Shown piece after piece: positions 4,837 through 53,566 of a stretch of DNA of 64,000 nt; position 1 is the first letter of the stretch, and the number at the start of each line of letters is the position of its first letter. This stretch comes from Polaromonas sp. JS666. Lineage in GTDB: Bacteria; Pseudomonadota; Gammaproteobacteria; Burkholderiales; Burkholderiaceae_C. Location: positions 3,782,001 through 3,846,000 of the forward strand of contig NC_007948.1 of the NCBI RefSeq assembly GCF_000013865.1, given 5' to 3'. The position numbers were made by a program, and so were the translations under genes. The notes under the pieces were generated by a model that was not told the origin of the DNA, searched no databases, and saw nothing but the letters and a program-made list of their open reading frames with translations.

Positions 4837-6198
4837 ATGAGCACAACTCTGCAAGATTGCCGCGCACTCGATGCGCAAGACCCACTGCGTACCCTGCGCG
4901 ACCAGTTCACCCTGCCCGAAGGCGTGATTTACCTGGACGGCAACTCGCTCGGCGTGCTTCCCAAAACCGCAGCGGCCCGCGTGGCCGAGGCAGTGACGCA
5001 GGAGTGGGGCCAGGGCCTGATCCGCAGCTGGAACAGCGCGGGCTGGTTCAGCCTGCCGCAGCGCCTGGGCGACAAGATTGCGCAACTGATAGGTGCAAAA
5101 CCGGGCGAAGTGGTGGCCACCGACAGCACCTCGATCAATCTCTACAAGGTGCTCAGCGCAGCACTCCATATCGCCGCGCAGGACGCGCCGCAGCGCAAGC
5201 TGGTGGTGAGTGAGCGCAGCAACTTCCCGACCGACCTCTACATTGCCGAGGCGCTGTGCAAGGAACGCGGCTTGCGGCTGCAACTGGTAGAGCCCGAAGA
5301 AATTAACGGCGCGCTGACCGCCGACGTGGCGGTGCTGATGCTGACCCATGTGAACTACCGCACCGGCGCCATGCACGACATGGCCGCCGTCACGGCGGCC
5401 GCCCATGCCGCAGGTAGCTTGACGGTCTGGGACCTAGCGCACAGCGCGGGCGCCGTCCCCGTGGACCTGAACGGCGCAAAGGCCGATTTCTCGATTGGCT
5501 GCGGCTACAAGTATTTGAATGGCGGCCCCGGCGCCCCGGCCTTTGTCTGGGTCAACCCCAAGCACGCCGACCGCTTCTGGCAGCCGCTGGCCGGTTGGTG
5601 GGGCCATGCCGCGCCCTTCGAGTTCACGCCCGACTACCGACCCGCCGCCGGCATTTCTCGGTACCTGTGCGGCACGCAGCCGATTCTGAGCATGACGGCG
5701 CTGGAATGCGGGCTCGACGGCTTTCTGGCGGCCGAGCCACTGGGCGGCATGCAGGCGCTGCGCCGCAAATCGCTGGCCCTCACCGACCTGTTCATTCAAC
5801 TGGTTGAAGAGCGCTGCGCAGATCAGGGCCTCGGGCTTGCAACCCCCCGCGAGCACACGCAGCGCGGCTCGCAGGTTTGCCTCACGCTCGGACACAGCCC
5901 CCACGCTCCACCGCTGCGCGGGTCGCTGCCCCCCGAGGGGGCCGTCACCGCCTTGGGGCGGCCCGGCGGCGGTGAGTCCGGCGCTTACGCCATCGTGCAG
6001 GCGCTGATTGCGCGCGGCGTGATTGGTGACTACCGCGCAGGCGACGGCGGGAAACATCTCGACATCCTGCGCTTCGGCTTCACGCCGCTCTACATCGGCT
6101 TTGAAGATGTCTGGAACGCCGTGGAGCAGCTCAAGCAGGTACTTGACACCGGTGAATGGCAAAGCGCCGAATTCAACCAGAAACATGCGGTGACCTGA
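4837..6198 (+). CDS. kynU: Kynureninase carrying a repeat-encoded insertion
   Basis: PLP-dependent enzyme that cleaves kynurenine to anthranilate and alanine. At 453 residues it is longer than the usual 410-425. The PLP lysine is Lys225 in GCGYKYLNGGPG, and LDGNSLG near the N-terminus and GDYR and RFGFTPLY near the C-terminus are family features. The extra length comes mainly from about residues 354-380, between GSQVCLT and AYAIVQALIARG. That stretch is encoded by a copy of the GC-rich palindromic repeat at 5897-5972, inserted in frame. Whether activity survives is unknown; the frame is intact and the downstream motifs are conserved, which suggests it does. kynA follows after 2 bp. Confidence 0.93.
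   Translation: MSTTLQDCRALDAQDPLRTLRDQFTLPEGVIYLDGNSLGVLPKTAAARVAEAVTQEWGQGLIRSWNSAGWFSLPQRLGDKIAQLIGAKPGEVVATDSTSINLYKVLSAALHIAAQDAPQRKLVVSERSNFPTDLYIAEALCKERGLRLQLVEPEEINGALTADVAVLMLTHVNYRTGAMHDMAAVTAAAHAAGSLTVWDLAHSAGAVPVDLNGAKADFSIGCGYKYLNGGPGAPAFVWVNPKHADRFWQPLAGWWGHAAPFEFTPDYRPAAGISRYLCGTQPILSMTALECGLDGFLAAEPLGGMQALRRKSLALTDLFIQLVEERCADQGLGLATPREHTQRGSQVCLTLGHSPHAPPLRGSLPPEGAVTALGRPGGGESGAYAIVQALIARGVIGDYRAGDGGKHLDILRFGFTPLYIGFEDVWNAVEQLKQVLDTGEWQSAEFNQKHAVT
5897..5972 (+). repeat. GC-rich palindromic repeat inside kynU
   Basis: A member of the dispersed repeat family of this window. It starts with GCCCCCACGC, contains CTGCCCCCCGAGGGGGCC and ends with GGGGCGGCCCGGC. It lies wholly inside kynU and is read in frame as a Pro/Gly-rich segment around PPLRGSLPPEGAV. 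The closest relative is the copy at 18019-18095. Confidence 0.8.
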
Positions 6199-6200
6199 TC

Positions 6201-7085
6201 ATGTGCCCCCACGCCCACCCCCCCGCCAAACCCGACCACGGCGCCACCACGACGCCCGAGCGCATTGTTCACGACGAGAAGGCGCAGCTCGACTTCAGCC
6301 GCGACATGAGCTATGGCGACTACCTGCAGCTGGATGCGATTCTGAACGCGCAAAAACCACTCTCGCCCGCACACGACGAGATGCTGTTCATCATCCAGCA
6401 CCAGACCAGCGAACTCTGGATGAAGCTGATGCTGCACGAGTTGCGCGCCGCGATTGCGAATGTAGCGGCCGACGAACTGGGCAGCGCCTTCAAGATGCTG
6501 GCACGCGTGAGCCGCATCATGGAGCAGCTGGTGCACGCCTGGGACGTGCTGGCCACCATGACGCCGCCCGAGTACAGCGCGATGCGCCCCTACCTCGGGG
6601 CGTCGAGCGGCTTTCAGAGCTACCAGTACCGCTGCATCGAATTCGCCTTGGGCAACAAGAACGCCGCCATGCTCCAGCCGCACGCACACCGGTCGGACCT
6701 GCTGGCGCAGGTGCAGGCCGCCTATGAAGCCCCCTCGCTCTATGACGAAGCCCTGCGCCTGCTGGCGCGGCGCGGCCTGGCCGTTCCCGCCAGCCACACC
6801 GAACGCGACTGGACACAGCCCTACCTTGAAAGCGCCGCGGTCGAACAGGCCTGGCTGACCGTCTACCGCGACCCGAAGCAGTACTGGGACCTGTACCAGC
6901 TCGGCGAAGAACTCACCGACCTCGAAGACGCGTTTCGCCTCTGGCGTTTCCGCCATGTCACCACGGTCGAGCGCATCATCGGCTTCAAGCCCGGCACCGG
7001 CGGCACCAGCGGCGTGAGTTATTTGCGCAAGATGCTGGATGTGGTGTTGTTTCCGGAGATCTGGAAATTGCGGACGGATTTGTAG
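6201..7085 (+). CDS. kynA: Tryptophan 2,3-dioxygenase
   Basis: Haem enzyme that opens the indole ring of L-tryptophan to give N-formylkynurenine, the first step of the pathway. The 294-residue protein has the conserved IIQHQTSELWMKL (substrate-site His67), the YQYR region, and the C-terminal FKPGTGGTSGVSYL glycine-rich loop. The start at 6201 lies 2 bp after the kynU stop; a longer frame from 6156 would overlap kynU and lacks family similarity. With kynB and kynU it makes a complete tryptophan-to-anthranilate operon. Transcription probably ends in the large palindromic region downstream. Confidence 0.94.
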   Translation: MCPHAHPPAKPDHGATTTPERIVHDEKAQLDFSRDMSYGDYLQLDAILNAQKPLSPAHDEMLFIIQHQTSELWMKLMLHELRAAIANVAADELGSAFKMLARVSRIMEQLVHAWDVLATMTPPEYSAMRPYLGASSGFQSYQYRCIEFALGNKNAAMLQPHAHRSDLLAQVQAAYEAPSLYDEALRLLARRGLAVPASHTERDWTQPYLESAAVEQAWLTVYRDPKQYWDLYQLGEELTDLEDAFRLWRFRHVTTVERIIGFKPGTGGTSGVSYLRKMLDVVLFPEIWKLRTDL

Positions 7086-7160
7086 GGGAAGTGGATTTAC
7101 CGGAATAGGTGTCTGCGTGAGGTGCTATTTATTTAATAGCGGGTTGACTCTGCTGAGGGT

Positions 7161-52647: not shown

Positions 52648-52661
52648 GGCGGTATTGACGG

Positions 52662-53411
52662 TTAAAGGGCCTGCAGGTCCATCATCATTTGCCGGGTTTT
52701 CAGGACCTTCACACCGCAATGGTAGTGCAGCAGCGCCCGCAACTGGGTTTTAAGTTCATTCAGGCCGGGGATGCAGGCCCGCACCGTGTCGGAAAACAGG
52801 GCGTTGTCGCCCAGCGCCTGCTGCAGCGCCTGCCATTGCACGCCGGGCAGGCTGTTGCGGTCGTCGTCATGGGCCTGCCTGAGGCCGGCCTCCGCCACCA
52901 GCACATAACGGGCCTGAGGCTCCAGGGGCGCCAGCGTTGCCGTCTCGGCATCCAGCAGGGGCAACAGGCCAATATCGCGCAGCAAACGCAGCTCAAAAGC
53001 CCGCAGGGCGAGCTGCAGCGTGTCCACGCTCTGGCTGGCCAGCAGTTGCACCGTGGCCGAATAGGCGTCAAAGAGCACCGGGTGCGGGTCATCGCGGGCC
53101 AGCAGGCGCATCAGCAGCTCATTCAGGTAGTAACCCGACAGCAGGGCATCGCCGGTGGGCATGACGTGGCCGCCTTGCCACTCCGCGCTTTTCAGGGTCC
53201 GGATTTCGGCATCGCCGCCGAAGGCAATGTGCAAGGGCTGCAAGGGCAGCAAAATCGGCCGGAAGCTGGAACTGGGCTTTTTTGCCCCACGCGCCACCAG
53301 CGCCACCCGTCCATACTGGCGGGTAAATATCTCCAGAATCAGGCTGGATTCACTCCAGTCGTAGCGGTGCAACACGTAGGCCGGCTCGTCACCGATGCGT
53401 TTGGTGGCCAT
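52662..53411 (-). CDS. recO: DNA repair protein RecO
   Basis: Helps RecR load RecA onto SSB-coated single-stranded DNA. The 249-residue protein has the N-terminal OB-fold with YVLHRYDWSESSLILEIFTR and the helical C-terminal part with FELRLLRDIGLLP (about 155-167). The start may be at 53411 or two codons earlier. It lies between era and pdxJ in the usual order. A GC-rich repeat separates it from era. Confidence 0.93.
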   Translation of the reverse strand: MATKRIGDEPAYVLHRYDWSESSLILEIFTRQYGRVALVARGAKKPSSSFRPILLPLQPLHIAFGGDAEIRTLKSAEWQGGHVMPTGDALLSGYYLNELLMRLLARDDPHPVLFDAYSATVQLLASQSVDTLQLALRAFELRLLRDIGLLPLLDAETATLAPLEPQARYVLVAEAGLRQAHDDDRNSLPGVQWQALQQALGDNALFSDTVRACIPGLNELKTQLRALLHYHCGVKVLKTRQMMMDLQAL

Positions 53412-53478
53412 GATCAAGGCGTCAGGCAGCAGACCAACAGCTCACCGCCACACCGGCGCAAGCTCTCCCCTCCCAGCA

Positions 53479-53566
53479 GGGGCCGCGGAACCGGCTTCGC
53501 CGGGCCGCAGGCGCAGCGGCCCCCTCGGGGGGCAGCGCAGTACGCGAAGCGACAAGCGTGGGGGCC
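53479..53566 (-). repeat. GC-rich palindromic repeat between era and recO
   Basis: The core at 53520-53566 is identical over 47 bp to the trpB copy. The part before it (GGAACCGGCTTCGCCGGGCC) resembles the truA/trpF copy. The repeat begins directly at the base after the era stop codon, so no gene is broken. Confidence 0.9.

Follow-up and report, generated by a model that had tools for sequence, protein, structure and literature searches.

What are the GC-rich palindromic repeats that recur within and between the genes of a 64,000-nucleotide stretch of Polaromonas sp. JS666 DNA (hereafter the window; G000:C1:3782001-3846000, in a 5,200,264-base contig of a 5.90-Mb genome), and how did they come to lie where they do? 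A first-pass annotation had described related copies at six loci and read them as a repeat under recent spread or ongoing gene conversion that carries no transposase of its own, and that may depend on a helper enzyme encoded elsewhere. The observation is confirmed and the interpretation is partly supported. The repeats very probably belong to the Beta-proteobacterial Repeat Element (BRE) family named by Hot et al., 2011 (PMC3110155), to which we matched them by size, arrangement and host taxa and not by letters. The unit is a folding module, its copies are dispersed and turn over between genomes, patches of sequence are exchanged between copies, and the same end of the element docks on the ends of coding sequences.

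Related copies are present at all six loci (Table 1), weakly so between truA and trpF. We accept this last copy despite its core-profile E value, because its tail is closely like a divergent tail in genome G020 and because clear copies occupy the same spacer in two relatives, G186 and G163. The cores at 38282-38329 and 53519-53566 are the same over 48 nucleotides, as had been claimed over a slightly shorter stretch, and the core at 18019-18066 is an inverted copy 98% identical to the one at 53519-53566; the units of the array behind leuB follow each other at a spacing of 104-105 nucleotides. Across the genome, the 16-nucleotide core TGCCCCCCGAGGGGGC has 129 exact copies (67 forward, 62 reverse) compared to none for the reversed control, which excludes chance as the source of the family. 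Searching this genome with an 88-nucleotide copy returned at least 55 matches (the best 40 of 267 candidates scored), and a core profile found 51 copies in 0.864 Mb. The published account of BREs describes GC-rich elements of 75-91 bp from betaproteobacteria (Bordetella and the Comamonadaceae), mostly intergenic, at times wholly inside open reading frames, and arranged in tandem in variable numbers; JS666 itself was the richest genome, where 29 were counted (PMC3110155). Units measure 79-83 nucleotides (type B) or 85-89 nucleotides (type A) here, and both size and placement fit this description; judged by the exact 16-mers, BREs are more abundant in JS666 than the published number. Rfam, searched at gathering score over the whole window, gave no match.

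Each unit reads, from its 5' end, GCCCCCACG, hairpin 1, TG, CCCCCC GAG GGGGGC, an arm, a tail and a complementary arm (arm'). Hairpin 1 is bulged, with a triloop and an unpaired T on its 3' side; it is followed by the core hairpin, which pairs C6 with G5, and then by a second (tail) hairpin held between the two arms. We sorted 315 distinct copies whose 5' end is complete by their tails: tail A, a triloop hairpin that includes unpaired bases, is carried by 166 and tail B, recognized by the block CTTGGGGCGGCCCGGCG, by 108, and 41 are unclassed. The two unit ends, GCCCCCACG and GCGGCCCC, show no inverted relationship of the kind that would mark a MITE of a DDE element, and none of the empty sites was clean enough to score a target duplication. 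In 61 diverse type A copies, 93.8% of the cells predicted to pair do so, compared to 88.2% after shuffling, and eight pairs have changed on both sides. These give 101 double-changed cells (a count of sequences, not of events) against 35.7 +/- 4.1 in shuffles, and 1-17 when the partners are slid by one to three columns. The weak pairs of the structure are columns 64/79, unpaired in 50 of the 61 copies, and pair 13-27, in 20.

The arms are hypervariable. They could be read in 104 type B copies, which hold 68 different arm pairs, and one identical 47-nucleotide core (partly ascertained by exact-match search, which the arms were not) precedes 36 of them. At least seven of up to nine arm positions pair in 58% of copies, a figure that falls to 12% when arms are re-paired between copies. 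Certain arm pairs recur in many copies and therefore seem to be inherited with the copies rather than made anew at each site.

BREs are widespread in the genus and reach beyond the family. The 16-mer is present in 74 of 81 genomes of the genus and in 110 of 150 genomes of the family, with its control at zero in every one. Among named genomes, at least 120 stretches contain an exact 46-nucleotide core; of the 80 matches listed, 59 are from Polaromonas, four from Rhodoferax, one from Curvibacter and 16 from entries under broader names. Using a type A covariance model with strict filters and 22 candidates scored per genome, we obtained matches in five of 200 genomes of the order: four of this family, JS666 included, and G324 of another (f4). 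A wider search of G324 gave 59 matches, and the seven copies that we read are alike in kind to those here in core and tail and differ in hairpin 1, so that BREs are present in another family of the Burkholderiales. One further locus, L327, was miscentred owing to the early end of its contig and is left out. Within the genus, covariance-model matches range from none, in the 99% complete genome G189, through one each in G152 and G219, to at least 150 in G174 and at least 157 in the richest genome (G192, 157; 150 candidates scored per genome).

Most copies had been said to touch a gene end. This holds, and more precisely it is always one end of the element, the 5' end, that does so. We called genes with our own hexamer script, restricted the count to intergenic copies standing first in an array, and regarded an end as docked when it lay within 15 nucleotides of a coding end. 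By this measure the 5' end is docked in 27 of 34 copies in JS666, 11 of 14 in G192 and five of seven in G324, against 7.6, 3.1 and 0.7, respectively, expected if copies were placed uniformly within those spacers; the 3' end comes equally close in two, none and none. A separate count in JS666 at a 12-nucleotide limit gave 29 of 35 against 6.4 expected, and of 35 other intergenic GC hairpins in the same DNA, two were docked by the left end and three by the right. The counts derive from 51 hits in JS666 (34 scored and four inside called genes), 36 in G192 (14 and ten, the latter perhaps including genes overextended by the caller) and 12 in G324 (seven and none); the remainder were later array units or copies without a called neighbour. 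The docked copies number 43 in all: 36 lie in sense behind a stop codon, and seven lie in antisense ahead of a start codon. A check that is free of gene calling agrees: among 243 distinct 5' flanks, drawn from many genomes, 180 have a stop triplet in their last 12 nucleotides, compared to 54-79 in 12-nucleotide windows starting at least nine nucleotides upstream. Within these flanks, an A-T-R-T-G motif is weak, at about 2 bits over five positions.

Copies also enter genes and are read into protein. Three had been proposed to be translated; this holds for kynU and trpB, and is probable for the third, in a gene for a CitE-like protein whose start is inferred. The kynU copy forms an in-frame insert of about 28 codons in the C-terminal domain, as compared to kynU of genome G173, and the flanks lie only eight nucleotides apart, with no insert, in G173, G226 and G186; kynU of G163 also lacks the insert and is directly followed by a copy. 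The trpB reading ends at an ATGA overlap with trpA. The CitE-like gene does not have the ATG of its G173 counterpart and its reading frame runs on into the copy, where a GTG likely serves as the start codon. An alternative plus-strand open reading frame at this place (16987-18171) had no Pfam match and was rejected as a gene. Any avoidance of stop codons by the copies is mild, with 1.02 per type A copy against 1.63 in shuffles (n=61) and 1.21 per type B copy against 1.97 (n=100).

Comparison of relatives bears out the description of a dispersed palindromic repeat without its own transposase that also enters genes: far from occupying the same sites in all relatives, copies vary between species and even between genomes as close as G173 and G226, which are 96.0% identical over 59 kb. 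Among 20 sites in G226, eight are common to G173 (L273, L274, L282, L284, L285, L286, L290, L291), three are arrays differing in make-up or length (L275, L276, L281), eight are absent (L272, L277, L279, L280, L283, L287, L288, L289) and one (L278) has no counterpart that we could find. A few bases left in G173 at L277, L280 and L283 may be BRE remnants, and loss therefore belongs to the picture. At one of these places, where G226 has a BRE (L277), the G173 spacer (L309) holds a palindromic repeat of the GTCATTCCCGCGAAGGCGGGAATCCA type. Shared sites differ internally as well. A 22-nucleotide hairpin of L290 is missing in G173, and between L291 and L295 the flanks align while hairpin 1 has been swapped with paired changes. 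The era site is occupied in JS666, G186, G226 and G099 by copies with three hairpin 1 types, and is free in G173 and G181. Both the L291/L295 swap and the era site support the gene conversion that the first-pass annotation had suggested. The leuB array is absent from G181 and G099, with zero to six nucleotides between the flanks, and the trpB copy is common to G228.

We consider it probable that BRE is a non-autonomous, REP-class (repetitive extragenic palindromic) mobile element. Such an element would spread in folded, single-stranded form through an enzyme supplied in trans, and the REP-associated tyrosine transposase (RAYT) of the host is not evidently that enzyme. The constant loops, bulges and core of the element may act as recognition marks, and its arms would need only to pair with each other. 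In favour of this reading stand the abundance of the exact 16-mer and its spread through genus and family, the covariation, the many arm pairs, the docking and the stop triplets of the 5' flanks, the site turnover between close genomes and the RAYT loci devoid of BREs. Several observations weigh against it. None of the sites compared between relatives showed a clean insertion with defined ends or a target duplication, in the G173/G226 pair the surroundings of absent copies often differ too, and some of these absences look like losses. Docking could stem from selection rather than insertion. No helper enzyme emerged. Further pair types are not raised in the type A structure (15 against 18.0 in shuffles), and most of five window copies, folded singly, did no better than their own shuffles; the leuB unit, as DNA and RNA, and the kynU copy, as RNA, folded clearly better. 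With so few single copies outfolding their shuffles, the case for structure rests on covariation. In JS666, a strand bias is seen: 89 positions (from 100 listed of the 129, arrays collapsed) divide into 21 plus and 35 minus before 2.6 Mb and 21 and 12 after it (Fisher p 0.027; 0.011 with the cut at 2.3 Mb). A strong chromosome-wide bias of the 16-mer is also seen in G099 (53 forward, 25 reverse), where the noisy skew profile offers no explanation; as G099 cannot be oriented by this skew, we draw no conclusion on a replication-strand bias. The proposal of recent spread stands in part, favoured by the site differences and tempered by the loss-like absences, the trpB copy common to G228 and the eight sites common to G173 and G226.

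Might BREs instead be mainly functional RNA elements, kept at 3' ends or in 5' leaders where they are useful, with dispersal being secondary? The preponderance of docked copies in sense after stop codons and a structure kept through paired changes speak for this view, as does an RNA of about 80 nucleotides (bprJ1) reported from a BRE region of Bordetella pertussis (PMC3110155). However, sites differ between 96%-identical genomes, copies also lie in antisense and inside genes, and the numbers per genus genome span from none to at least 157, which together make this explanation unlikely. A bolder version of the mobile-element reading would make BRE a new kind of mobile repeat, paired by a guide and seeking gene ends. 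It would be a single-strand element with no transposase of its own, the pairing of an internal guide arm with the terminal arm would set its 3' end, the pairs being freely interchangeable and one constant core serving dozens of them, and an enzyme would place its 5' end at coding ends. We regard this as improbable.

The obvious candidate for the enzyme was a RAYT (TnpA_REP), for which the first-pass annotation had advised a search, and BREs would then be classical REPs moved by the single resident gene. JS666 does contain one RAYT-like gene, for a Y1_Tnp protein of 232 amino acids at 0.81 Mb; Y1_Tnp matches are found in 79 of the 81 genus genomes, mostly one in each, and the bulged hairpins of BREs resemble REP hairpins in kind. 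Yet the fetched flanks (up to 1.5 kb) of 25 RAYT-type loci are all free of BRE cores, whereas 24 of these loci have at least one repeat of another, AATTGG..TCAGA, type (AATTGGGGTCAGA / TCTGACCCCAATT, one mismatch allowed), a pattern with just four matches in 0.864 Mb of JS666, the RAYT locus included. Moreover, six of the seven genus genomes without the 16-mer possess a RAYT, G189 has the gene and no BRE by covariance model, and twelve 16-mers occur in G160 (79% complete), which shows no Y1_Tnp match. Because of the 25 loci and the six 16-mer-free genomes, RAYT is neither flanked by BREs nor sufficient for them; we reject it as the evident helper and find the classical REP explanation very improbable, although the enzyme may still recognize BREs in trans with no copies beside its own gene. 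In G174, G196 and G165, IS200-type genes are flanked by palindromes containing CCCGGCAAAGCCGG or a near variant, a sequence that tail A contains too; we treat this observation as a lead only. At L245, L246 and L247, rare IS200-type transposase genes are enclosed by CCCCCGGCAAAGCCGGGGG-like palindromes spaced about 0.63 kb from each other, which have a 13-14-nucleotide hairpin in common with tail A, in one case with an altered loop. That BREs are old repeats upheld by recombination only, through array duplication, gene conversion and loss and with no transposition, would suit the shared sites, the changes in array length, the hairpin deletion between short repeats, the swapped hairpin 1 and the three hairpin 1 types at era, but is very improbable in view of the narrow gaps that face the kynU insert in three relatives and the leuB array in two, and of copies beside many unrelated genes in both orientations.

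Table 1. BRE copies of the window with the genes they adjoin or enter, and the RAYT-like gene (positions are those of the window unless a locus is named).
Feature	Position	Strand	Remarks
Type B copy in kynU	5897..5976	+	In frame, sense; core 5897-5942, block CTTGGGGCGGCCCGGCG 5952-5968, arm' 5969-5976
kynU, 453 amino acids	4837..6198	+	Copy inside C-terminal domain; Pfam KYNU_C match split in two
Type B copy between mdh and CitE-like gene	18019..18099	+	Antisense to both; 5' end at CitE-like N-terminus
mdh	18113-19099	-	
CitE-like gene (HpcH_HpaI)	17029..18027	-	Probable GTG start 18027-18025 inside copy (inferred)
Tandem array, four units, after leuB stop	30482..30862	+	Core starts 30483, 30590, 30695, 30799
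Degenerate copy between truA and trpF	36131..36209	+	Divergent tail; core profile E = 2.3
Type B copy in trpB	38250..38329	-	Other strand encodes the trpB C-terminus; 5' end lies 6 nucleotides from trpA start
Type A copy after era	53479..53566	-	Sense, 1 nucleotide past era stop; era by Pfam
RAYT-like gene	L031 1459-2157		One of 25 RAYT-type loci examined

Apart from BREs, the window contains a 978-nucleotide sequence twice (1-978 and 48109-49086), in inverted orientation and 100% identical, with an open reading frame matching an integrase core (rve) and HTH_21; with these domains it has the look of an insertion sequence present in duplicate.

When BREs were named in 2011, neither a function nor a mover was assigned to them. 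Their anatomy becomes testable through the docking rule, the hypervariable paired arms and the rejection of the obvious helper. Targeted docking would mean that the repeats find gene ends unaided; selected docking would mean that many genes in a single genome bear a hairpin by the terminating ribosome, which should change their output. A sense copy would set a strong hairpin beside the ribosome as it terminates and should lower the output of the gene upstream, for which the REPs of Escherichia coli offer a precedent, while an antisense copy would bring a GUGGGGG strand near the position of the ribosome-binding site. Either way, gene ends, start sites and enzymes with extra residues, such as kynureninase, are affected wherever BREs are common.

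How do BREs compare to known systems? The BRE section of the original paper contains no hairpin anatomy, paired variable arms, docking rule or helper test (PMC3110155). A literature search that did not extend to most subscription journals traced the BRE name to this paper alone, with no later description found, and returned no earlier description of paired interchangeable arms or of docking on coding ends. The REP/REPIN-RAYT system likewise consists of short dispersed palindromes without their own transposase, hundreds per genome and also present in genes (PMC3733652). BREs differ in that they do not lie beside RAYT genes and in that their unit comprises two different hairpins and a core in one orientation; we saw no GTAG or CGTC tag at its 5' end. 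In E. coli, 446 of 4,072 REPs (about 11%) are reported to lie within 15 nucleotides of a stop codon, where ribosome stalling and lower translation have been described (reference 17 of PMC12306157). Both elements place a hairpin near stop codons, yet the great majority of intergenic BREs do so, and by the same end. The palindromic elements of Rickettsia are alike in behaviour through their in-frame presence in coding genes (PMC3733652). In-frame copies in conserved proteins are seen here in kynU and trpB, a likeness of behaviour for which we claim no relation in sequence, and coding copies are a minority among BREs. The ends of IS200/IS605 elements are built from a guide, a hairpin and a cleavage site, with the guide and the cleavage site pairing. 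The BRE order of arm, bulged hairpin and complementary terminal arm resembles this arrangement; in contrast to IS200/IS605, the BRE unit holds no transposase gene, and its arms are longer and vary within one genome.

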